Positions 1,562 through 20,788 of a DNA stretch of 20,788 nucleotides are shown here, piece after piece. The position numbers and the translations under genes were made by a program. A model generated the notes under the pieces. The model made no database searches, was not told the DNA's origin, and was given only the letters and a program-made list of their open reading frames with translations. Every line of letters begins with the position of its first letter. Positions within the stretch are counted from its first letter, which is position 1. This stretch comes from a virus, in IMG/VR virus record IMGVR_UViG_3300009105_000036, positions 1 to 20,788 of that record; one strand, 5' to 3'.

Positions 1562-1577
1562 AAGGAGAAAAAAATTG
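1562..1577 (+). promoter_or_regulatory. Ribosome binding site with TTG start of the major capsid gene
   Basis: AAGGAG at 1562-1567 is followed, 7 bases later, by TTG at 1575. No ATG or GTG is better placed, and the next in-frame ATG (1647) has no comparable site and would remove part of the N-terminal domain. TTG for the most abundant virion protein is unusual but the ribosome site is strong. Confidence 0.75.
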
Positions 1578-2990
1578 CCACCTGAACCTAACAAAGACGA
1601 AAAAAGAGAGTTCACCGTTGACGACCTCAAGCACCTAATTGCGGAAATGGTTGATTCTAAAATTATGGGTCAAGACTTTGTTAAATTGTCAGACCTTAAA
1701 GACGAAATCAACGAAGCCGTCAAGCCCATGGTCAAAACCGATGAACTCCAAACCGCGCTCTCTGCGGAGTTTGATAAATTGGCGCAACTGCCTGGTAAAG
1801 GCGGAGCCGACGACCTCAGTCCCAACGACAGCGCATGGAAGGGCCTTGACCCGACCGGCGGGTACGACCTTTTTACCGACTTCCTGAAAGACGTTTACCT
1901 TGCAACGCAGCATGGGGCCGAACCATCCAGGAACTTTGAAAAGTGGTTTTCCTCTGCCAGGGCCTACAACGACGTAATCAAGGAAGGCCTCAGTGTTGGA
2001 GCCGGCAAAGACGCCGACGGCGACACCAAAGCCGCCGGCACGCCGACGCTCGAAATCGGCGACCCCGAACAGGGCGGATTCCTCACACCACCGGAATACT
2101 CCCGGACGATGTTGGAACGGGGCTTCACCAACTCCAACTTCCTCCAACGCTGCACCAAGATTCCTATGGCCATCAACGAAATCCATATGCCTTACATTCA
2201 GGACTTCACGCACACAACCTACCTCCACGGCGCCATGCAGGCCTACTGGAAGGACGAACTGGCAGCCAAAACGGCCACCAAGCCCAAATTCGGTGAAATC
2301 ACCATGCGGCTCAACAAGCTCGTAATGCTCATCTATTCCTCGGACGAACTAATTGAGGATTCAATCGTTTCAATGGAACCGCTGCTCGGAGTCAAGGCGG
2401 GCGACACCATCGGTTGGAAGATGGACAGAGCCATTATCCGTGGCACTGGCGCAGGGCAACCTCGCGGAATTATCGGCGCGGCCTGCACCGTCAACCAGGC
2501 GAAGGAAGCCGGCCAAATCGCGGCCACAATCGTTATCGAGAACATCCTGAAAATGTGGAGCCGGATGCCTTCGGCAAGCCTGGCCAAAAGCATTTTCATC
2601 TGTAACAACGATTGTTTCCCGCAGTTAGGCTTGATGACCATTCCTGTTGGCACAGGCGGCGCACCTGCGTATTTGCCTGCCACGGGAGTTTCAGGCGCAC
2701 CGTATGGCACACTCATGGGCCGGCCGCTGATTTTCAGCGAACACTGCAGCGCCCTCGGAACCGTTGGCGACATTATTCTGGCCGACTTTTCCGAATACCT
2801 CGTCGGACAGAAACGCGGCGCAGGCGCAGGCATTCAGTACGCCTCGTCCATCCATTTCAAATTCGACGTTGACCAAACGGCGTTTAGGTTTGTGATGCGA
2901 GCCGACGGTCAGCCGTGGTGGCCGAGCGTGTTCACGCCCAAAGCGGGCAGCACGCAGGGGCCGTTTGTTACCCTGGCCACAAGGGCGTAA
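1575..2990 (+). CDS. Major capsid protein, HK97 fold
   Basis: This 471-residue protein forms the icosahedral shell. Residues 1-140 are charged and helical (segments near 15-70 and 97-140), resembling the delta/scaffold domain that the upstream protease removes in HK97-type phages. The Phage_capsid signature begins near 158 with DPEQGGFLTPPEY (163-175), the usual start of the mature chain. It continues with LIYSSDELIEDS (252-263) in the E-loop/spine-helix region, and RAIIRGTGAGQPRGII (285-300), close to the family consensus for this segment. The C-terminus (FRFVMRADGQPWWP onward) matches the P- and A-domain end of the family. Position directly after the protease is canonical. The exact cleavage site and any HK97-type crosslinking residues cannot be read without an alignment. 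Confidence 0.94.
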   Translation: MPPEPNKDEKREFTVDDLKHLIAEMVDSKIMGQDFVKLSDLKDEINEAVKPMVKTDELQTALSAEFDKLAQLPGKGGADDLSPNDSAWKGLDPTGGYDLFTDFLKDVYLATQHGAEPSRNFEKWFSSARAYNDVIKEGLSVGAGKDADGDTKAAGTPTLEIGDPEQGGFLTPPEYSRTMLERGFTNSNFLQRCTKIPMAINEIHMPYIQDFTHTTYLHGAMQAYWKDELAAKTATKPKFGEITMRLNKLVMLIYSSDELIEDSIVSMEPLLGVKAGDTIGWKMDRAIIRGTGAGQPRGIIGAACTVNQAKEAGQIAATIVIENILKMWSRMPSASLAKSIFICNNDCFPQLGLMTIPVGTGGAPAYLPATGVSGAPYGTLMGRPLIFSEHCSALGTVGDIILADFSEYLVGQKRGAGAGIQYASSIHFKFDVDQTAFRFVMRADGQPWWPSVFTPKAGSTQGPFVTLATRA

Positions 2991-3002
2991 AGGAGGACTA
3001 TC

Positions 3003-3440
3003 ATGGCGCACAACGAATTTCAAAAAAAGTTTGATGTGGACAAGGTTTTTACCCTCAAAACGGTAAACAACGCCATCATCTCAAGCACCACAACAGTCAC
3101 CGGCACCCCGTGGATTCTCATGGACAGGGCGCACCACATTGCGTTCATCTGTCAGCCCATTGACGCCAACCTGGCCGGCGCAATCACCGCTTCGGTGTTG
3201 CAGGCCACAAGTGTCAGCGGCAGCGGGTCGAAAACCATAGGCACCGCCGCTTCAACATCATGGAGCGCGGGAACGGGCGACTTGGGTATTAAGGTTCTCG
3301 AAGTCGAGGCTTCTCAGCTTGACGTGGCCAACGGCTTTGATTGCGTGTCCCTGAAGGTAGTTACCGCAGGCGGTGACTCTTTCTGCGCGCACGCCGTCAG
3401 AGGGCCGTTGCGACACGCACCTGCAAGCCTGATAACCTAA
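3003..3440 (+). CDS. Probable capsid decoration or head-associated structural protein
   Basis: A 145-residue Thr/Ser/Ala-rich, predicted all-beta protein lies 12 bases after the capsid gene behind a strong AAAGGAGG site. It has no signal peptide, membrane segment or catalytic motif. A central Ser-Gly-rich turn (about 70-90) and a terminal VKVVTAGG...AVRGPLRH-like stretch resemble small structural proteins encoded just after the capsid gene in other siphoviruses. From size, beta character and position, a trimeric decoration or head-stabilising role is likely. I cannot tie it to a named family, so the role is inferred from context. Confidence 0.6.
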   Translation: MAHNEFQKKFDVDKVFTLKTVNNAIISSTTTVTGTPWILMDRAHHIAFICQPIDANLAGAITASVLQATSVSGSGSKTIGTAASTSWSAGTGDLGIKVLEVEASQLDVANGFDCVSLKVVTAGGDSFCAHAVRGPLRHAPASLIT

Positions 3441-4890: not shown

Positions 4891-5169
4891 ATGGGGATTA
4901 TCAAAAACCTCGAGTTAAACTGGAGTGACAGGAAGCTGCGCTTAATATCATGGAGGAACAAGGCAAAGTCTATGCAAATAAGCAGCTTCAAATGGAGTGC
5001 GGCAACCGGCAAAAAATATATCGGCTTCAAATTTATTGTCGATTTGTTTTCCGATAGTGGCCATTGCCATTGGATAGAGCTAACGGTTTTGGATTGGATT
5101 GTCAGCCTAAGAATCGACACAAAATATGGCAGAGAAAGCATAGAGAGATTTAAAAGGCAATCGGCATGA
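4891..5169 (+). CDS. Hypothetical protein, AT-richer accessory gene
   Basis: I chose ATG 4891 because AAAGGAGG lies 4 bases upstream. A GTG start at 4810 would read through both hairpins. The 92-residue product is basic at its start (MGIIKNLELNWSDRKLRLISW) and has a hydrophobic/aromatic stretch, CHWIELTVLDWIVSL (about 58-72), too polar for a sure membrane helix. The gene looks clearly more AT-rich than the flanking structural genes and uses AGA, AGG and ATA freely, as expected of a recently acquired 'moron'. It ends in an ATGA overlap with the Cys-rich protein gene, so the two are probably made together. I recognise no family. Confidence 0.65.
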   Translation: MGIIKNLELNWSDRKLRLISWRNKAKSMQISSFKWSAATGKKYIGFKFIVDLFSDSGHCHWIELTVLDWIVSLRIDTKYGRESIERFKRQSA

Positions 5170-6038
5170 ACACAAGCAACGTGACTCCTAAACCCTACGA
5201 GCGAATTTGGGAGATAACCCCCGACCCGCTTGCCATCAAGCCGCGGGCGGAATTTCGCTGTTTGTTTTGCGGAGGGCCTACGCAGGTTTCGCATGGCGTT
5301 TACTTCGAGTTTGAACTGAAGCTACACGGTGACAGCACAAAAAAAAGTCACGCCATGGACACCTGGCTGCGGTGCCATTTCTGCGGATGGACGGACGTGC
5401 ATGGCGTTGCCATGCCGGACGAAAAGTACCAACTCATTGCCGACGCTGTACACACGGCACAAAGGGTTGACGAAAAGGGCGGGTACATCACACCCGACCC
5501 GAACGAAGAACGCCCTAGCAAGGGCATGATATTTCCAATGAATCAGGAGGCAATAATGGAAAAACCCACAAAGCCGCCTTGGCTTGCTTACGACACCGAA
5601 ATTGGCATACTGCCAGGATTCCCCATGACCTGCAAAAAATGCGGGCCATGGATACGCCAACAGCAAGAAGAAGGAAACCATACCGACGTAAAGCTCCATG
5701 AAAATGGGGAAGTTCCTATGATTTTGCGCCACAGTCGAATGCACCAGGCGCGGAGAAGTAGGATTGTAAAAAGATGGCGCTTTTTTAACTGGATGCAGAT
5801 TGAGTTCCACAAGCCTGTTTCGCCCACGTTTGCGGCGCCGGTCTTTAGGGTGAGCTACAAATGTCCTGTGTGCGATTGGCTTTCAACGTTTGTTGTGCCG
5901 GTGCCGCAGGAATATTTCGATATAACTTTAGAGCTACGGGGAGGCGAGGCGCTCTACTACCCGCCCCTTGACGACTGGGGCAAGGATGCCGACTACGACC
6001 TCGTAAAGGAAAAACTCGAATCCCTGGGCTACGTTTAG
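5166..6038 (+). CDS. Tandem zinc-ribbon-like protein, possible dual translation start
   Basis: This 290-residue protein has four CxxC knuckles: Cys 32/35 (RCLFCGG), 70/73 (RCHFCGW), 156/159 (TCKKCG) and 233/236 (KCPVCDW). They fall into two halves, each with CxxCG first and CxxCxW second, followed by Pro-x-(D/Q)-E-(K/Y) (MPDEKY at 83-88, VPQEY at 246-250). This looks like internal duplication of a two-knuckle zinc-binding module. The halves are joined by a linker (95-150) that holds a second good start (Met131). There is no nuclease or helicase motif. Zinc ribbons usually bind nucleic acid or stabilise protein contacts. A virion, DNA-binding or host-transcription role is open. It is coupled by ATGA to the small gene before it. 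Confidence 0.6.
   Translation: MNTSNVTPKPYERIWEITPDPLAIKPRAEFRCLFCGGPTQVSHGVYFEFELKLHGDSTKKSHAMDTWLRCHFCGWTDVHGVAMPDEKYQLIADAVHTAQRVDEKGGYITPDPNEERPSKGMIFPMNQEAIMEKPTKPPWLAYDTEIGILPGFPMTCKKCGPWIRQQQEEGNHTDVKLHENGEVPMILRHSRMHQARRSRIVKRWRFFNWMQIEFHKPVSPTFAAPVFRVSYKCPVCDWLSTFVVPVPQEYFDITLELRGGEALYYPPLDDWGKDADYDLVKEKLESLGYV
5545..5558 (+). promoter_or_regulatory. Strong internal ribosome binding site and in-frame ATG in the zinc-ribbon gene
   Basis: AGGAGG (5545-5550) stands 5 bases before an in-frame ATG (5556), the same geometry as true starts in this window. Initiation here gives a 160-residue product holding only the second pair of CxxC knuckles. It may mark the join between two ancestral genes or drive production of a shorter isoform. 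Confidence 0.55.
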
Positions 6039-6047
6039 GAGGATAAA

Positions 6048-6494
6048 ATGAAAAAGCTATTAATTTGCGCAGCGGCCCTGCTGCTGCTTACCCCGCTTTT
6101 TGCCGACCTGCGGTACTCGTATGATTTCCTTGCGGCCGTCAACGCCGTGGCCGATAACACAACCGAAGTACACGGTACCGATTACACAAGCCGGCAGGTT
6201 GACGTCTCAAGTTGGGGTGCCTATTGCGGCATAACGATTGAGTTTACGCCGGCAGCCGGTGCGGCCGTGGACGTGACTTACGAGTTTGCGGTTTCTATGG
6301 ACAACGGCGGCACCTACACGACGGCCGACAATTATTCGATAGCCATACCATCGAACACGCGGGCCGTTGGCGGGGTAGTTCGTTATTCTACGGTGTTTGA
6401 TTTATCGGGGGTAAGCCATATCCGGCTCGACCGCATGATAGTCGGAAACGGGGCGGGAAACTGCACAGCTATGCAAGCCCATGTCTCATATTAG
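6048..6494 (+). CDS. Exported beta-rich protein with Sec signal peptide
   Basis: This 148-residue protein starts behind TAGGAGG with 5-base spacing. It begins with a textbook Sec signal: MKK, a hydrophobic core (LLICAAALLLL) and a TPLFA-D cleavage site near residue 20. The Cys at 7 is too early for a lipobox. The mature part is a Thr/Val/Ala-rich beta domain (VDVSSWGAYCGITIEFTP..., YEFAVSMDNGGTY, HIRLDRMIVGN). This resembles beta-sandwich proteins reporting 'expected value plus variation', common near phage fibres, but I cannot name the family. A signal peptide is unusual for a gene inside a head-neck operon. It could be displayed on the host surface, be periplasmic, or use the hydrophobic N-terminus as an anchor. 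Confidence 0.6.
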   Translation: MKKLLICAAALLLLTPLFADLRYSYDFLAAVNAVADNTTEVHGTDYTSRQVDVSSWGAYCGITIEFTPAAGAAVDVTYEFAVSMDNGGTYTTADNYSIAIPSNTRAVGGVVRYSTVFDLSGVSHIRLDRMIVGNGAGNCTAMQAHVSY

Positions 6495-6503
6495 GAGGGC
6501 GCC

Positions 6504-7286
6504 ATGAGGGGCAAAAAATTTAAAATAATTCTACCGCTAGTGGCAATCCTTTCTTTGGTTGTCTTTGCTGTTGCTGCCGGCCAGAGCGTATTCGTACAGC
6601 CAAGTGTTTTTGTGCGAAACGGCAACACTACTCTGGGGATAATGTCTCAGGAGCCTTACGACGTTTTGGTTTGGGACTTGATTTCGTCCGGCAATCCCTG
6701 GTGGTATTGGTATGGCTACGATGCCGGCACGGCCTCGGTTAAATATGGCCGCGTGCGGGTCAATGCTGCCGGAAAGTTCGTAATCGAGGCTGAGGAAGAA
6801 ATAATTATAGCTTCCGACTTCGGCATAGCCGACGACCAACTCCTGACGTTCGGTGACGACACGGACGCAAGCATCGAATACGACGAAACCACCGACGACC
6901 TTTGGAAGTTCGGGGTGCCGGTTTCAAACGACACTTTTTATATCACCGACACTTGGGTGGCCGACGACGGCGCAAGCGATTGGGACGAAGGCGCTTATTT
7001 GGAGGCAGCCTCCGGGGCCGCCGGCAAGTACATGATGAGTTACACGCTCTCTGCCACGGAAGGCGGGGGCGCAGGGTCAAATTGGACTGTTGCGGTGTAC
7101 CACAACGATGGAGAGGCCAAAAAAAGCATCAGCAAAAGGAAGATGGCGAACAACGATTACGGCAACATGGGAGGTCAAGCCATTGTAACAATAGCCGCAG
7201 GGGACAGGGTATTTTTGACCGCAGAAAGCTCAGGGGTGAACACGCTTACAATCCAATACGGGAACCTTATAATCAAGCGGTTGTAA
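6504..7286 (+). CDS. Exported fibre-like protein with signal peptide and C1q/TNF-like C-terminal domain
   Basis: This 260-residue protein has an N-terminal signal: MRGKKFK, then ILPLVAILSLVVFAVAA, with probable cleavage near residues 25-27. Residues 28-105 are beta-rich. Residues 114-135 contain LTFGDDTDASIEYDETTDDL, a motif seen in phage fibre and tip proteins. From about 145 to the end a jelly-roll like the C1q/TNF head is suggested by GKYMMSYTLSATEG, NWTVAVYHNDGEAKKS, AIVTIAAGDRVFLTAESSGVNTLTIQYG and a short basic end. These domains trimerise in known proteins. It lies 9 bases after the other exported protein, so the two may work together, for example in adhesion. The combination of signal peptide and virion-type domains is the odd feature. 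Confidence 0.6.
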   Translation: MRGKKFKIILPLVAILSLVVFAVAAGQSVFVQPSVFVRNGNTTLGIMSQEPYDVLVWDLISSGNPWWYWYGYDAGTASVKYGRVRVNAAGKFVIEAEEEIIIASDFGIADDQLLTFGDDTDASIEYDETTDDLWKFGVPVSNDTFYITDTWVADDGASDWDEGAYLEAASGAAGKYMMSYTLSATEGGGAGSNWTVAVYHNDGEAKKSISKRKMANNDYGNMGGQAIVTIAAGDRVFLTAESSGVNTLTIQYGNLIIKRL

Positions 7287-7298
7287 TGGAGGATAACC

Positions 7299-8441
7299 AT
7301 GGCTCTTGACACCTACGCACTCATAACCGTCGAGGACTACAAGGCCTTTGCCGGCATAAGCAACAGCGAAATCGAGGCCGACGCGATAAGTCTTTATTGT
7401 TCGGCCGGCGACGCCACCGCAGCCACCGCGACCAAAAGCGGCGACACGTTGACGCTCGTTATCACCGGCGGGGCCAATGCCGGCAGCAACGCCTTGGATT
7501 TGACCGCCGCAGCCAACGACACCTTAGGCGAATTGGCAGCCGTTATTGAGGCCTTAGGGGGTTGGACAGCAAACCTCATAGGATGGGCTTCTGCGGACTC
7601 AACAGACCTAAAAAACGTAGGTTCAACGTCGGTCTTAGGCTCTGCCAACGAAATCACGCTGCGGTTTTACGACAACTACAAAATCGAGCGCCTTATCGAC
7701 CGAGCCTCCGACGTTATCGAGACCTTCCTGAACCGGAAAATAAAAAGTCGCGATTACACCCGCGAACGCTACGACGGGGGGCGGCGGAAGCTGTTTCTAA
7801 CGGCGTACCCCGTAACGGCCGTGCGCCTGGTCAGCGTTGGCCAACAGGATTGTATCCGCATTCAAAACACAGCCGGCGAGTTCAACGCCTCTGTGGCCAT
7901 TACCACGACAGGTGTAATACTCACGGTTGACGGCACGGCCGTCGCGGAAAAAACTTTCGCAAGCTACGCCACCATGACGCTCATGGCTGCCGAACTCAAC
8001 AGCGAGACCGGATGGGAAGCCACCGTGCCGGACAGCAACATGGACTCCTGGCCCTCGGACTTGCTCGTTGAAAACCCGAACATCTTTTGCCTCAACGAAT
8101 ACGGCTACCTGCCCGTGCCCGACGACCCCAAAGAGGACTACACCGTTGACCTCGATACGGGAATCGTTGAGTTCGGGTACCTTGGCGGCGGGTTTCAGGA
8201 TGTTTTCGTGTCCTATACGGGAGGCTACGCCACCGTACCGGACGACATCGTAATGGCCTGTTGTGCCATGGTCAAATATTATGACGACCTCAGCGACGTC
8301 GACCTGGCCACGGTCAGCGAAAAATTGGGCGATTACTCCTACAAGCGCGGCGAAAGCGACATGATGGCGGTCAACGTGGCTCTGTCGCCTGACGACATGA
8401 AAACGCTGCAACGCTATCGCCGGAGGCCGATAAATCCATGA
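7299..8441 (+). CDS. Head-tail connector (HK97 gp6-like) with two inserted beta domains
   Basis: The connector ring sits under the portal. The family core is present but split. Residues 5-32 (YALITVEDYKAFAGIS...) give helix 1. Residues 124-190 (KIERLIDRASDVIETFLNRKI, RERYDGG, LFLTAYPVTAVRLVSV) and 279-330 (DYTVDLDTGIVEFGYL, VFVSYTGGYATVPDDIVMAC) give the rest. Residues ~34-123 and ~193-262 are extra. Each contains LTLVITGG or ILTVDGT, then a helix (TLGELAAVIEALGGW or TLMAAELNSETGW) and a Ser/Asp-rich loop, so they look related. Usual family length is about 100-200 residues, against 380 here. The start follows GGAGG by 6 bases. The end overlaps the head-closure gene by ATGA. Confidence 0.82.
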   Translation: MALDTYALITVEDYKAFAGISNSEIEADAISLYCSAGDATAATATKSGDTLTLVITGGANAGSNALDLTAAANDTLGELAAVIEALGGWTANLIGWASADSTDLKNVGSTSVLGSANEITLRFYDNYKIERLIDRASDVIETFLNRKIKSRDYTRERYDGGRRKLFLTAYPVTAVRLVSVGQQDCIRIQNTAGEFNASVAITTTGVILTVDGTAVAEKTFASYATMTLMAAELNSETGWEATVPDSNMDSWPSDLLVENPNIFCLNEYGYLPVPDDPKEDYTVDLDTGIVEFGYLGGGFQDVFVSYTGGYATVPDDIVMACCAMVKYYDDLSDVDLATVSEKLGDYSYKRGESDMMAVNVALSPDDMKTLQRYRRRPINP

Positions 8442-8773
8442 GCCTAAAAACCATCATCCGAAAAGCCAACACGCGGTGTGACATTAAAAGCGTAACGGGC
8501 AGCAAAGGCGCCGGCGGCAAGCTGACCAAGACCTGGGCCATGCGGTACCACAACGTGCCGTGCCGGTTCAACGCCAAAATGACCGAGGCCGAAATGCTGT
8601 ACTACGAAAAGGCGGCAGTGTTTCCGGATTTTATTATGTACATCCAGTATCGCAGCGGCATTCTCACGACCGACAAGGTTCTTTTCGACAGCCGCACGTT
8701 CGACATAAAGAAAATCGACAACTGGGATGAAACAAACAAATATTTAAAAATAGCTTTACAGGAGGTTTTATGA
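8438..8773 (+). CDS. Head-closure (head-tail adaptor) protein
   Basis: This 111-residue protein begins in the stop of the connector gene (ATGA). It is small and beta-rich: CDIKSVTGSKGAGGKLTKTW, then VPCRFNAKMTEAEM, VFPDFIMYIQYRS, DKVLFDSRTFDIKKIDNWDETNKYLKIALQEV. The pattern 'low-complexity start, CRF/CR-like strand, then x-V-x-x-D-x-R-x-F-(D/E)-I-x-x-I-D' matches phage head-tail joining proteins of the SPP1 gp16 / HK97 adaptor type. They plug the connector after DNA packaging and receive the tail. Length and position are normal for the family. Confidence 0.72.
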   Translation: MSLKTIIRKANTRCDIKSVTGSKGAGGKLTKTWAMRYHNVPCRFNAKMTEAEMLYYEKAAVFPDFIMYIQYRSGILTTDKVLFDSRTFDIKKIDNWDETNKYLKIALQEVL

Positions 8774-9156
8774 GTAAAAAAAAGCTGAACCTTGCGCGCG
8801 CGACCCCAGAGGAAACGCTGCTTGGGTTTGTGGCGGCATGGCAGGGCCGCAAGTGGGAAGACATGGTGCAGTATGTCCAAAAATCCTGGGTTGAAATGAC
8901 CGAAAGCAGCGAATTTTCAGCGGCCGAAATGCTGAAAGCCGCCTTCCAATTCAAACCGGTTGATATGGAAGTGCTTGACTGTGCCATGCCGAACAACTCT
9001 GTTTACATAATCAAACTGCGGATTAAATACGCCATAGCCCGCAACGTTGTAAAAGAGGCGGTAAAAGACGTCCGGCTGATAAGCGAAATTGCGCCCATGG
9101 CGCCGGCCCCTAACGGCACCTGGGGTGTAGTGCCTAACACTCTAATGGTGACATGA
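8770..9156 (+). CDS. Hypothetical NTF2-like protein in the neck block
   Basis: This 128-residue protein overlaps the adaptor gene by ATGA and has its own GGAGG site (8761-8765). Features: TPEETLLGFVAAWQGRKWEDMVQYVQKSW (12-40), the helix-Trp-helix start of NTF2-like domains, then a helix at AAEMLKAAFQF (51-61), strands around VDMEVLDCAM and VYIIKLRIKYAI, and a closing strand with a NGTWGVVPNTLM end. I do not see a catalytic Asp/His pair, so a structural or binding role is more likely. Most HK97-type phages go directly from adaptor to gp10-like protein, so this gene is an addition. NTF2-like is a pattern judgement of moderate reliability. Confidence 0.45.
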   Translation: MSKKKLNLARATPEETLLGFVAAWQGRKWEDMVQYVQKSWVEMTESSEFSAAEMLKAAFQFKPVDMEVLDCAMPNNSVYIIKLRIKYAIARNVVKEAVKDVRLISEIAPMAPAPNGTWGVVPNTLMVT

Positions 9157-9653
9157 TGAAACCGAAAATGGTAATAACCGGCAAAGAAATCGTGGTGAAA
9201 AACCTCAGTCTCTTACCGGCTAAAGCCATCAACGCCGTGGCAAAAGCCACGCTCACGGCGGCCATCTTGACAACCAACGACGCGAAAATTCTTAGCCCCG
9301 TAGACAGGGGCCGGCTAAGGGCGTCCTTGTCTTTCAATTGGACTGACAGCGGAATACAGCACGGCAAAATCAAAGGCAAGGTCAAACCCAAGGCCGGCAG
9401 CAAGGGCAGCACGCCGCAGGACGGCGTTGGCCCGCCGCCGAAGGAACTAAAGGGCTTTCACGCTTCCGTTGGCACCAACGTCGAGTACGCCGAGGACGTG
9501 GAGAATAATATTTCTCCATTCCTGTGGCCCGCTTTTGCCATGAATAAAGAAAAATACAGAACCATGCTATCGGCCGCGCTGCGAACGGAACTCTCGACCA
9601 CGCGACTGACCGGCGGCTCGTTCTTCGGGCGCCCGAATGTGAGGAAATTATGA
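9153..9653 (+). CDS. HK97 gp10-like tail completion (neck) protein
   Basis: This 166-residue protein has starts at 9153 and 9156, both overlapping the previous stop. Core family features are: a long first helix (VKNLSLLPAKAINAVAKATLTAAILTT), the NDAKILSPVDRGRLRASLSF motif (43-62) corresponding to the conserved 'aP..tG.LR.S' segment, SVGTNVEYAEDVE (105-117), and a terminal SPFLWPAF followed by a helix. A Lys/Gly-rich loop (about 70-98) separates the halves. The usual Gly-Thr after the YAxxVE motif is replaced by NN. Proteins of this family join tail and head and are normally encoded just before the tail terminator, as here. Confidence 0.8.
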   Translation: MMKPKMVITGKEIVVKNLSLLPAKAINAVAKATLTAAILTTNDAKILSPVDRGRLRASLSFNWTDSGIQHGKIKGKVKPKAGSKGSTPQDGVGPPPKELKGFHASVGTNVEYAEDVENNISPFLWPAFAMNKEKYRTMLSAALRTELSTTRLTGGSFFGRPNVRKL

Positions 9654-10066
9654 GCATAGCAACCGACGTCCCTTTCGATGCAATCCAGAACGCCATTTAC
9701 ACGGCGCTGCAAGGCACAATTACCGGCGAAGTGTACGACGAAGTGGCCGACGATGCCGAATTTCCTTACACGGTCATTGGTGAGCCGATGGACTTGCCGT
9801 TTGAGGCCCGCGGGGTCAAAGGCCGTTCTGTGATATGGCCAATTATTGTACATAGCCGGCCTGGCGACACCGGCGGCAAGTGGCAGTTGTACGACATAAT
9901 GGAGGAAATCGTCACAACGCTGACGGCCTCCCAACTGAGCCTGACCGGATGGCGGGAAATATGGAAAACCTTTAACCAGGCCCGCGTAGAACGGCAGAAA
10001 AAAGAGACCGGCAACGTTGCCTACAAAGGAACGGTGACGATGCTCATTACGGTGGCAAAACTATGA
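9650..10066 (+). CDS. Tail terminator protein (DUF3168-like)
   Basis: This 138-residue protein overlaps its neighbour by ATGA on both sides. It matches the tail-terminator pattern: helix DAIQNAIYTALQG, the strand TGEVYDEVADDAEFPYTVIGEP (25-46), in which Y-D-x-x-x-x-x-x-x-FPY is the family hallmark, and WPIIVHSRPGDTGGKWQLYDIMEEIV. The end carries SLTGWREIWKTF and RQKKETGNVAYKGTVTMLITV. The hexameric terminator stops tube growth and presents the tail to the head. In most phages of this type the tube gene follows directly; here three enzyme genes intervene. Confidence 0.82.
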   Translation: MSIATDVPFDAIQNAIYTALQGTITGEVYDEVADDAEFPYTVIGEPMDLPFEARGVKGRSVIWPIIVHSRPGDTGGKWQLYDIMEEIVTTLTASQLSLTGWREIWKTFNQARVERQKKETGNVAYKGTVTMLITVAKL

Positions 10067-10626
10067 ACCAAAAAGAACGGCGGGAAGCCCACATGAAGGC
10101 GCACATCTCTGACGTGCATGATTATGGCACTTTGTTGTATATCGGCGCATCACCTGGCAAGCAGCAAATGGTCAAAGGATTCAACGACGCCGGCTATAAG
10201 ATTGACGTCCTTGAGGCCTGGAAAGAAAATGTCGACGGCCTGAGGTTTATCAACAACGGAACGGGTGTTTTTCGTAAAATCATACACGGCACGGCCGAGA
10301 AGTTTGTTGCCGGCCCTCCGTTTTGGTACGTTGACCCTGACCACCGGCCGTATGATGTGATAATGTGGTGGCATGGCCCGGAACACGTCGGCCGAACGGA
10401 TGCAGAAACAACCTTAATAGGCCTGGAACAGCAAGCTAAACACCTGCTTATCGCTGCCACGCCAAACGGTGTCTTTGAACAAGGGCCGGATTTAGGCAAC
10501 CCGTACAATCCGCACGTTTCGACATGGTATGCACAGGATTTTCACCGGCTAGGGTTTTTGTCGGCCGCAATCGACGGTATCGACAAAAAAGGCAGCCATC
10601 TTTTGGCCTGGCGGAGGGTGGCATGA
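10063..10626 (+). CDS. Class I SAM-dependent methyltransferase-like protein
   Basis: This 187-residue protein starts in the terminator stop (ATGA). It has a Rossmann-type layout: LLYIGASPGK (24-33) as motif I, YKIDVLEAW (45-53) as strand 2 with its acidic end, YDVIMWWHGPEHVGR (97-111) as motif IV region with the usual 'leH', and LLIAATPNGVFEQG...NPHVSTW (128-155), a form common in type-11 methyltransferases ('tPnG...N..H'). Motif I is degenerate compared with DxGxGxG, and there is no DPPY/NPPY, so a DNA base methyltransferase is unlikely. Likely targets are sugar, protein or small molecule. Tight coupling to the sulfotransferase and glycosyltransferase genes suggests a shared substrate. Confidence 0.62.
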   Translation: MNQKERREAHMKAHISDVHDYGTLLYIGASPGKQQMVKGFNDAGYKIDVLEAWKENVDGLRFINNGTGVFRKIIHGTAEKFVAGPPFWYVDPDHRPYDVIMWWHGPEHVGRTDAETTLIGLEQQAKHLLIAATPNGVFEQGPDLGNPYNPHVSTWYAQDFHRLGFLSAAIDGIDKKGSHLLAWRRVA

Positions 10627-11426
10627 AAATCTTTGTGGTTTCCACAGGAAGGTGCGGCACGGTGTTTATGTCGGAGGTGTTCAGCAAGCTCACGACCGTT
10701 CCGAGTTTTCACGAGCCGCGGCCGCATTGCGCGGGCGAAACCATGCGTTTTGTCAACGACACTGAAGGCAAACAATATCCCGTGGCCGTGCGACGTGAAC
10801 TTGCGGATAAAATAAAACAGGTCAAGGCCGATTCCGTTGACGGCCACTATTTCGAGAGCAGCCAAATGTTCGTCAAAGCGTATGCGCGGTTTGTATTCAA
10901 GGCGTTTGAGAATGTGGCCTTGATTTACCTCCACCGCAATCCGATTGAAGTTACCATGAGTTACTACAAAAAGAAGCTCGGTCAACCGAAGCAATACAAT
11001 TATTGGCACCTGCAAAGCCATTGGAGCCAAAACATTTTACGCATGGCAGAGCCGCAGGGCCTTTATGCCGACATATTTTGGGAATGCCTGGAAATAAAAG
11101 AGCGCTTTCTGGCGCTCAAGGCCATGGCCGCAAAAACGTTTGTAATGGATTTTAAGCGACTCAACGACGTCGGCGCTTGGAAGGCTCTGTTTAAGCACCT
11201 AAACGTCCCGCACAGGCCATTTAAGGCCCTGCCTGATGTAAACAAAAACGCCGTCGAGGGCGATACGCTCAAAACGCTGAACGGGCTGCTCTCAATTTGG
11301 GATGAACCTGGCGCCGATGCGCCGCCGGCCACGGCTCACTACGACCGATTGGCCACGTTCATAGACTTCGGCCAAAAGACAATAGCAAAAACACAGAGAG
11401 GGAACAATGCGCAAATACTTGGATGA
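10623..11426 (+). CDS. Sulfotransferase-like protein (PAPS-dependent fold)
   Basis: I chose ATG 10623 (GGAGG 5 bases upstream, ATGA overlap). An upstream start at 10524 would bury the first 33 residues in the methyltransferase gene. The 267-residue product begins MKIFVVSTGRCGTVFMSEVF, the 5'-phosphosulfate-binding loop of sulfotransferases (GRCGT/GRSGT). ALIYLHRNPIEVTMSYYKK (99-117) is the 3'-phosphate site with Arg105 and Ser113 in the expected spacing. SFHEP (28-32) resembles an HEP element seen in some sulfotransferase-like proteins. These enzymes move sulfate from PAPS to hydroxyls or amines of glycans, lipids or Tyr. The fold can also be used by non-sulfating P-loop enzymes. It overlaps the glycosyltransferase by 20 bases. 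Confidence 0.72.
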   Translation: MKIFVVSTGRCGTVFMSEVFSKLTTVPSFHEPRPHCAGETMRFVNDTEGKQYPVAVRRELADKIKQVKADSVDGHYFESSQMFVKAYARFVFKAFENVALIYLHRNPIEVTMSYYKKKLGQPKQYNYWHLQSHWSQNILRMAEPQGLYADIFWECLEIKERFLALKAMAAKTFVMDFKRLNDVGAWKALFKHLNVPHRPFKALPDVNKNAVEGDTLKTLNGLLSIWDEPGADAPPATAHYDRLATFIDFGQKTIAKTQRGNNAQILG

Positions 11427-12297
11427 TGTTGCCGTGGTGGTGACGACGTTTATTCGCCCGAAACAGTTGACGAAGTGCATTGTCAGTATTCGGAAGTTTT
11501 ACCCGTCAATAAAAATCCTTGTGGCCGACAACGGCCGGCCCGATGCGGCAATATCCGCTTTTCTGCGCTCTGAGAATTGCGAACACCTCTTGCTGCCGTT
11601 TGACAGCGGCCTGGCCATGACGCGCAACAGAGGTCTGGATAAACTGGCGACCTATCCCTACGTTGTTATGCTTGAGGACGACATGGAATTTACAGCCGAG
11701 TCGAAGCTAGAGAAATTCAAGGCTGCCATCGAACCGAACCCCCAAATCGGAGTCGTAGCCGGCGGGCTTGAAGTTGAGCCAGGCGTAAAAAACCTCTTTG
11801 CCAACAATATCGTAGTGGACAAGGAAAACAACCGTTATCTTGTGCGGGCCATCGACAAGCCCGAATGGCACACGTCCGGCGGGGTACGGTGGTTTTATGC
11901 CGAGTACGTTTACAACTGGCATATTATGCGCAACGCGCCCGATATACGTTGGGACGACGACCTCAAGCAATGTATCGAACATTTTGATTTTGCCGTCCAC
12001 ATGAAAACGGAAACGAAATGGAAAATCGCTGCCACGCCGGAAGTTGTCTGCCGGCATTTTGCCGTGACGGAAACCAAAGAGTACGTCACCCACCGGCGCA
12101 ATTACGCAACGTGGAAAAAGTTTTTCGCGAAACGGGGCATCCGGTTCATGCACGACTCGACAGAAAAAAGGATGCGTGATTTTAAGACGATTGAATGCTT
12201 GTCGGCGCCGGAATACCACTACCGAATGCTCATGGCAATGAAAGAAGCCCAAAGCGGGGTCGACATGAAAGACCAATCGCTTTATAGGGATATATAA
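11407..12297 (+). CDS. Family-2-type (GT-A) glycosyltransferase
   Basis: This 296-residue protein has a clear GT-A N-terminus: VAVVVTTFIRPKQLTKCIVSIRKFYP (8-33), ILVADNG (37-43), DSGLAMTRNRGLD (66-78), and VMLEDDMEF (87-95), in which EDDM holds the metal-binding Asp. Further on EHFDFAVHM (191-199) fits the base-bearing E-H-x-D-F element, and CRHFAV (215-220) may be metal-coordinating. The N-terminal pattern is reminiscent of beta-1,4 N-acetylgalactosaminyltransferases (GT12-like) as well as GT2. The donor sugar cannot be read from the sequence. No membrane helix or signal peptide is visible, so it works in the cytoplasm. It is the last of the three modification genes, ends 20 bases before the tube gene, and probably glycosylates a virion protein or a host glycan precursor. 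Confidence 0.8.
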   Translation: MRKYLDDVAVVVTTFIRPKQLTKCIVSIRKFYPSIKILVADNGRPDAAISAFLRSENCEHLLLPFDSGLAMTRNRGLDKLATYPYVVMLEDDMEFTAESKLEKFKAAIEPNPQIGVVAGGLEVEPGVKNLFANNIVVDKENNRYLVRAIDKPEWHTSGGVRWFYAEYVYNWHIMRNAPDIRWDDDLKQCIEHFDFAVHMKTETKWKIAATPEVVCRHFAVTETKEYVTHRRNYATWKKFFAKRGIRFMHDSTEKRMRDFKTIECLSAPEYHYRMLMAMKEAQSGVDMKDQSLYRDI

Positions 12298-20453: not shown

Positions 20454-20477
20454 ATGAAAAAAAGAATGAAAAAAAGA
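20454..20477 (+). repeat. 12-base tandem duplication at the fibre gene start
   Basis: ATGAAAAAAAGA occurs twice in a row (20454-20465, 20466-20477), encoding MKKR twice. It doubles the start codon and the positive n-region of the signal peptide. The A-runs suggest slippage during replication. Confidence 0.85.
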
Positions 20478-20788
20478 TGGCTCGTGATTTTGCCGATTTT
20501 GTTACTGGCAAGCCTTTTGTTTGCACAACAGCAATCGGTAAGGCTGCTAAATACCGGAGGGACGGACTGGCTCACTTTTGTGTGGAACGAGGCCGACGCG
20601 AACGACCGGACGTTGAATTTCACCGTGAACGGGGCGAGTCGGACGTTCGCTATACATGGCAATCTGACGGTTGAATCCGCATCTCTCATAAACCAGGACT
20701 TGACAACGGACTCAGCGACAGCGACTTTAGCCGGACTTGCCTTAACTGGAAATCTTACTCTAGCAGCCAACTCAATAACTGGAACATC
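20454..20788 (+). CDS. Tail fibre-like protein with Sec signal peptide, 3' truncated
   Basis: The gene runs off the window; 111 codons are visible. AAGGAG (20441-20446) is 7 bases before ATG 20454. The N-terminus is a strong Sec signal: MKKRMKKR, then WLVILPILLLASLLFA and QQQ, with cleavage after Ala near residue 24. The mature part (SVRLLNTGGTDWLTFVW..., ANDRTLNFTVNGASRTFAIHGN, LTVESASLINQDLTTDS, ALTGNLTLAAN) is a series of short beta modules typical of phage fibres and tail spikes ('rTLnf.vnga.Rtf...GnlTv'). A fibre with a cleavable export signal is unusual. The first 24 bases are an exact double of a 12-base unit, so a second Met (20466) is also possible. Confidence 0.65.
   Translation, partial: MKKRMKKRWLVILPILLLASLLFAQQQSVRLLNTGGTDWLTFVWNEADANDRTLNFTVNGASRTFAIHGNLTVESASLINQDLTTDSATATLAGLALTGNLTLAANSITGT

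Follow-up and report, generated by a model that had tools for sequence, protein, structure and literature searches.

Three genes in the structural region of a tailed virus, here termed A, B and C, begin with predicted Sec signal peptides. We propose, at a probability of about 0.45, that their products are virion-type surface proteins that have acquired export signals and that, once exported, join the virus particles at lysis. The DNA analysed (the window) is the whole of a 20,788-base IMG/VR entry, probably itself a genome fragment, and its gene content is that of the structural region of a siphovirus-type virus. The head part contains, in order, genes for a prohead protease, the capsid, a decoration-like protein, small proteins, A, B and the head–tail adaptor; these are followed by neck and tail-terminator genes, the tail tube, the tape measure, baseplate-like genes and a fibre region (Table 1). 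A and B are tandem genes, flanked by the gene for a 290-aa protein on one side and the adaptor gene on the other, and the family matches of the capsid and adaptor confirm the original placement of the pair between head and neck genes. C lies 3′ of the baseplate-like genes, where a tail-fibre gene is expected.

Table 1. Features of the window that bear on the exported proteins
Feature	Coordinates	Strand	Basis
Major capsid protein	1575..2990	+	PF05065, E 3e-42; anchor for the search for relatives
Decoration-like protein, directly 3′ of the capsid gene	3003..3440	+	phrog_28483; conserved in relatives
ORF A, 148 aa: signal peptide and a mature part of ~129 aa, beta-sandwich-like, 2 Cys	6048..6494	+	ORF call, scorer, model
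Predicted Sec signal peptide of A, predicted cleavage LFA/DLR after residue 19	6048..6104	+	Own rule-based scorer
ORF B, 260 aa: signal peptide, fibre repeat, C-terminal jelly-roll-like domain	6504..7286	+	ORF call, scorer, phmmer, model
Predicted Sec signal peptide of B, predicted cleavage AVA/AGQ or VAA/GQS	6504..6575	+	Own rule-based scorer
Fibre motif FGDDTDASIEYD in B	6849..6884	+	Motif search, phmmer
C1q/TNF/BclA-like C-terminal domain of B (weak)	6900..7283	+	Pfam below cut-off, low-confidence model
Head–tail adaptor	7299..8441	+	phrog_442, E 1e-20
ORF C, runs off the window: signal peptide and fibre motif SLINQDLTTDSATATLAGL; tail-fibre position	20454..20788	+	ORF call, scorer, phmmer

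Two other segments of the window are worth recording. The 290-aa protein encoded directly upstream of A (5166–6038) contains several CxxC pairs, is zinc-ribbon-like and belongs to no family. Between the tail-terminator and tail-tube genes, an insertion at 10063–12297 encodes a sulfotransferase (PF13469, E 4.5e-7), a GT2 glycosyltransferase (PF00535, E 2.6e-11) and a 187-aa product that, judged by eye, resembles a methyltransferase; these enzymes may modify virion or host glycans.

Signal peptides were scored with a rule set of our own, not SignalP, at a threshold of 12. Among the controls, OmpA and Lpp were recognized (Lpp as type I), PhoA was missed, GroEL gave no signal and LacY scored 8.3, under the threshold. 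Three of the 25 window genes pass, A with 13.6, B with 17.0 and C with 14.3; the other 22 called genes give no score or at most 10.6. All three N-termini have a positive n-region, a hydrophobic h-region and a small residue at −1, and A and C carry Leu at −3, which is allowed although less usual. In 5,000 shuffling trials per protein, a score as high as the natural one arose 8 times for A, never for B and once for C. An AGGAGG Shine–Dalgarno sequence stands at normal spacing upstream of both A and B, and C likewise combines a strong Shine–Dalgarno site with a classical Sec signal peptide at its start. The Sec signals originally predicted for A and B are borne out by these results, and the scorer accepts both as type I. 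Cysteine counts and glycosylation sequons listed for the three proteins were uninformative.

The comparison set consisted of 1,042 non-redundant genes, all encoded on the same strand as the capsid gene and drawn from 104 of 109 given capsid-selected loci. Seven of these genes pass the threshold without a second membrane segment. Against this background, 3 of 25 has a binomial probability of ~6e-4, and an adjacent passing pair is expected ~0.001 times per genome. The rate in true phage genes is probably lower, since two of the seven come from close to the end of a bacterial contig (L168) and a third (L023) appears to be a false positive. A signal in the slot of A and B is rare, with only one of the 104 loci (L162) having a passing gene between capsid and adaptor. 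The shuffles and the comparison set make chance N-termini unlikely, and the strong Shine–Dalgarno sites at the exact starts rule out wrong start codons.

B provides the clearest link to virion proteins. It contains a phage-fibre repeat of the FGDDxDxxIxYD type, and among 18,729 ORFs of the fetched loci the best phmmer match of mature B is a five-repeat fibre protein of L143 (E 1.7e-13). The fibre motif in B, as judged from these sequence matches, is real, in agreement with the original prediction. C matches another L143 fibre (E 1e-4) in the same type of search. For the C-terminal tip of B, the proposed C1q/TNF-like fold is more weakly supported than first stated: a low-confidence model is jelly-roll-like, and the Pfam matches to BclA_C (E 0.0017) and C1q (E 0.043) both fall under the curated cut-offs (18.7 vs 38 and 14.5 vs 23.7 bits). 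Residues ~133–260 of the model (pLDDT 48) resemble TNF, C1q, BclA and CBM chains alike, with Z-scores of 6.7–7.7, all below 8. The models weakly suggest that B carries a receptor-binding-type domain.

The single-sequence AlphaFold model of A is a beta-sandwich of low confidence (pLDDT 57). By Foldseek it is most similar to TNF-like lectins, and phage fibre domains come further down the list. Structure prediction of the mature parts, which had been suggested as a check, yields jelly-roll or sandwich models in both cases, but the models of A and B are poor and their fold matches therefore serve as leads only. No confident homologue of A was found by phmmer among the ORFs of the fetched loci (best E 0.08), and comparison of A, B and C with Pfam, PHROGs, PDB sequences and a phage collection gave no firm homologue. 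IMG/VR scans with A and B returned only an identical contig, adding nothing, and scans with C or the capsid protein alone returned no match.

Fibres related to B mostly lack a signal, and those that have one recur in other viruses. A DNA pattern for the FGDD motif has 71 matching stretches in viral contigs. The ORF that holds the motif starts with a signal peptide in four of these, which belong to three viruses: the window virus, L124/L125 and L140. The remaining 67 motif loci show no signal; in seven of them the ORF is truncated at its 5′ end and therefore not assessable, and a few of the 71 stretches match by chance. Because most of the homologous fibres are without it, the signal appears to be an add-on. 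In L124/L125 and in L140, the signal-peptide fibre lies directly 3′ of a capsid-like gene, and next to it comes another gene with a signal peptide, whose product is jelly-roll-like. The two fibres are homologous from residue 1 (37% over 65 residues), and the second proteins are 36% identical, with the signal kept in both. The tail-end genes of the L124 virus carry no signal.

The L124 capsid-like protein has no family match; from its size and its place behind a maturation protease we infer that it is the capsid. It is 58% identical to its counterpart in Caudoviricetes sp. vir525, a Methanosarcinales virus, and a PCNA-domain gene lies on the same contig as L124, which makes an archaeal host likely for this virus. 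By capsid protein, both groups, L124/L125 and L140, are related to a Methanosarcinales virus. A search for MCM in six records, made for host placement, found nothing in the viral contigs. Like its capsid relative L124, vir525 (L159) has signal-scoring genes, in its case in the head and packaging region, but its gene behind the capsid-like gene is without a signal; it belongs to a different group from the window virus. Side observations in these contigs include a PTPS/QueD-like gene, perhaps for 7-deazaguanine DNA modification, near the PCNA-domain gene on the contig of L124 (L199, 10320–11683). Signal-scoring genes of vir525 lie upstream of the terminase gene (1877–3325) and just before the portal gene (8686–9381). 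L140 has a further signal-peptide gene, of 211 aa, behind a portal-like gene (2064–2699), and the capsid-selected viral contig L028 encodes a 139-aa signal-peptide protein that is fibronectin type III-like (10433–10852).

A genome scan with the capsid alignment gave 25 loci, among them L162, a relative of the window virus, which is binned as Parcubacteria but is also present in IMG/VR as a virus contig (L192). Its gene order is capsid, decoration-like gene, a 234-aa gene, a 138-aa signal-peptide gene and adaptor, and the signal-peptide gene occupies the slot of A and B. The adaptors of the two viruses are 52% identical over 103 residues (residues 24–123 of the window adaptor); this ~100-residue domain of the window adaptor lies outside the usual adaptor match region. 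The domain of the L162 signal-peptide protein is found without a signal in vir525 and in L193–L196. Among viral contigs, L009 is the best capsid relative with a related adaptor, and in its A/B slot it has a fibre with an NQDV-type motif like that of the window virus and no signal. Bins containing relatives of the window capsid include Planctomycetota, Dehalococcoidia, Desulfobacteraceae, Streptomyces and Clostridium, among others, and no host for the window virus was identified from them.

A further case, L188, was found by a scan with a jelly-roll alignment. Three consecutive genes score 11.7, 14.8 and 10.6, of which only the middle one passes the threshold of 12. Its product matches phrog_3287, annotated ‘virion structural protein’, over residues 35–557 (E 7.7e-18). 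In two cultured phages, Microcystis phage MaAM05 and Rhizobium phage RHph_N3_2, the homologous protein starts at the point where the signal of the L188 protein stops. No second copy of the phrog_3287 gene was found in the 15.9-kb contig. The signal-less homologous domains seen across these viruses also include the C-terminus of a 927-aa L188 protein.

The predicted signals suggest that A, B and C are exported by Sec and cleaved. The original view that structural-looking proteins are exported holds up for export itself: the sequences speak well for it, and so does the finding of the trait in other viruses. In the pathway that we propose, A would be a small beta-sandwich, decoration-like protein and B and C would be fibres, all expressed late in infection. 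Sec would export the three proteins, their signals would be cleaved, and folding and oligomerization would take place outside the cytoplasm. Lysis would then mix the compartments, allowing A, B and C to attach to finished heads and tails, and the outer parts of the particle would thereby be completed outside the cytoplasm. Weighing against this proposal are the rarity of the trait, the signal-less tail-end genes of the L124 virus, the failure to find a confident homologue of A, and the envelope or lysis roles of the exported tailed-phage proteins described so far in the papers found. Joining of particles at lysis was absent from the original prediction, which considered display on the infected cell or use of the N-terminus as a membrane anchor.

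Display is a strong competitor, although we place it below even odds. The exported proteins would be retained by the envelope, at its surface or within it, in infected cells or lysogens; their fibre-like receptor-binding domains would mask receptors, block superinfection or act as adhesins, and the proteins would not be virion parts. Those exported proteins of tailed phages for which we found a description act on the envelope, and the receptor-binding-type domain suggested by the model of B would suit such a role. However, display leaves unexplained why one virus has signals both in capsid-adjacent slots (A and B, between capsid and adaptor) and in a tail-fibre slot (C, behind the baseplate-like genes), and why a core virion family carries a signal in L188. 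Phage lipoproteins of the Llp/Cor type have a lipobox with Cys at +1; this mark is absent from A, B and C, for which the scorer returns type I. Attachment at lysis fits the signals on several virion slots and the L188 virion structural family somewhat better, and on these grounds we slightly favour it over display on the cell.

It is improbable that the hydrophobic N-termini escape signal peptidase and serve as membrane anchors or prohead protease substrates, with the proteins entering the virion from the cytoplasmic side. A prohead protease gene does precede the window capsid gene, and the available part of a report on Porphyromonas phages suggests that prohead proteases cut signals on capsid proteins (PMC10367356). 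In the signals of A, B and C, nevertheless, the n-, h- and c-regions are all complete, a small residue stands at −1 and the scorer rates them as cleavable, which makes an uncleaved anchor less likely, and the genes encode proteins of the surface type, not the head interior. That A is instead a small outer-membrane beta-barrel (Lom- or OmpX-like), leaving only B and C as fibres, is very unlikely: weak OmpX matches by phmmer (E 0.49), a C-terminal tyrosine and amphipathic strands favour a barrel, but the model and its fold matches, at low confidence, are of the beta-sandwich or jelly-roll type.

If A, B and C are in particles, part of a tailed virion is built outside the cytoplasm, where disulphide formation and extracytoplasmic glycosylation become accessible. 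If they are not, they represent a class of secreted receptor-binding proteins from a viral structural operon, which would probably influence superinfection or adhesion. Pipelines that annotate such genes as fibres, or drop their signals, would miss either outcome. To our knowledge, assembly of tailed virions takes place, as a rule, wholly in the cytoplasm. A wider and rather doubtful extension is that several unrelated tailed viruses, archaeal and probably bacterial, send fibres, decoration proteins and even a neck- or nozzle-type protein through Sec and, against that rule, finish the particle beyond the cytoplasm.

Each of the ingredients, namely fibres, decoration proteins and exported proteins encoded by phages, is already known. 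What appears to be new is that fibre- and decoration-type proteins encoded within the structural region carry Sec signals in several unrelated tailed-virus groups; the open-licence literature searched yielded no account of Sec signals on tailed-virus fibres or decoration proteins. Structures of the turret and tail of the archaeal tailed virus HFTV1 (PMC12494034) and of a gene transfer agent (PMC7296036) are described, in the accessible portions of both papers, without mention of export. B and C share their repeats with fibres of marine T4-like and other phages with FGDDxDxxIxYD and NQDV-type repeats; those loci are mostly signal-less, whereas B and C have a signal.

Several known proteins resemble one aspect of the window proteins. 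Lom of lambda, an envelope protein, is encoded by a signal-peptide gene between tail genes, according to the available text of its source (PMC12309495), and shares with A, B and C a place inside the structural gene region; by description it is an outer-membrane barrel, whereas B and C contain fibre repeats. In Porphyromonas phages, signal-peptide genes whose function is unknown were linked by the authors, in the section available, to outer-membrane modification (PMC10367356). XepA and YomS of PBSX and SPbeta are phage-encoded exported beta-sandwich proteins with weak fold similarity to A. XepA is reported to be exported and absent from mature particles, and the available part of that report mentions no Sec signal on it (PMC6834076); the two are lytic-cassette proteins, whereas A lies between head and neck genes. 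Signal-peptide endolysins are, as excerpted, exported phage proteins that act in lysis (PMC6116005). The minor coat protein G3p of M13 is a virion protein made as a Sec preprotein, in the available account (PMC8310372); M13 is a filamentous phage, unlike the tailed window virus, and the likeness lies in a virion part that starts as a Sec preprotein.
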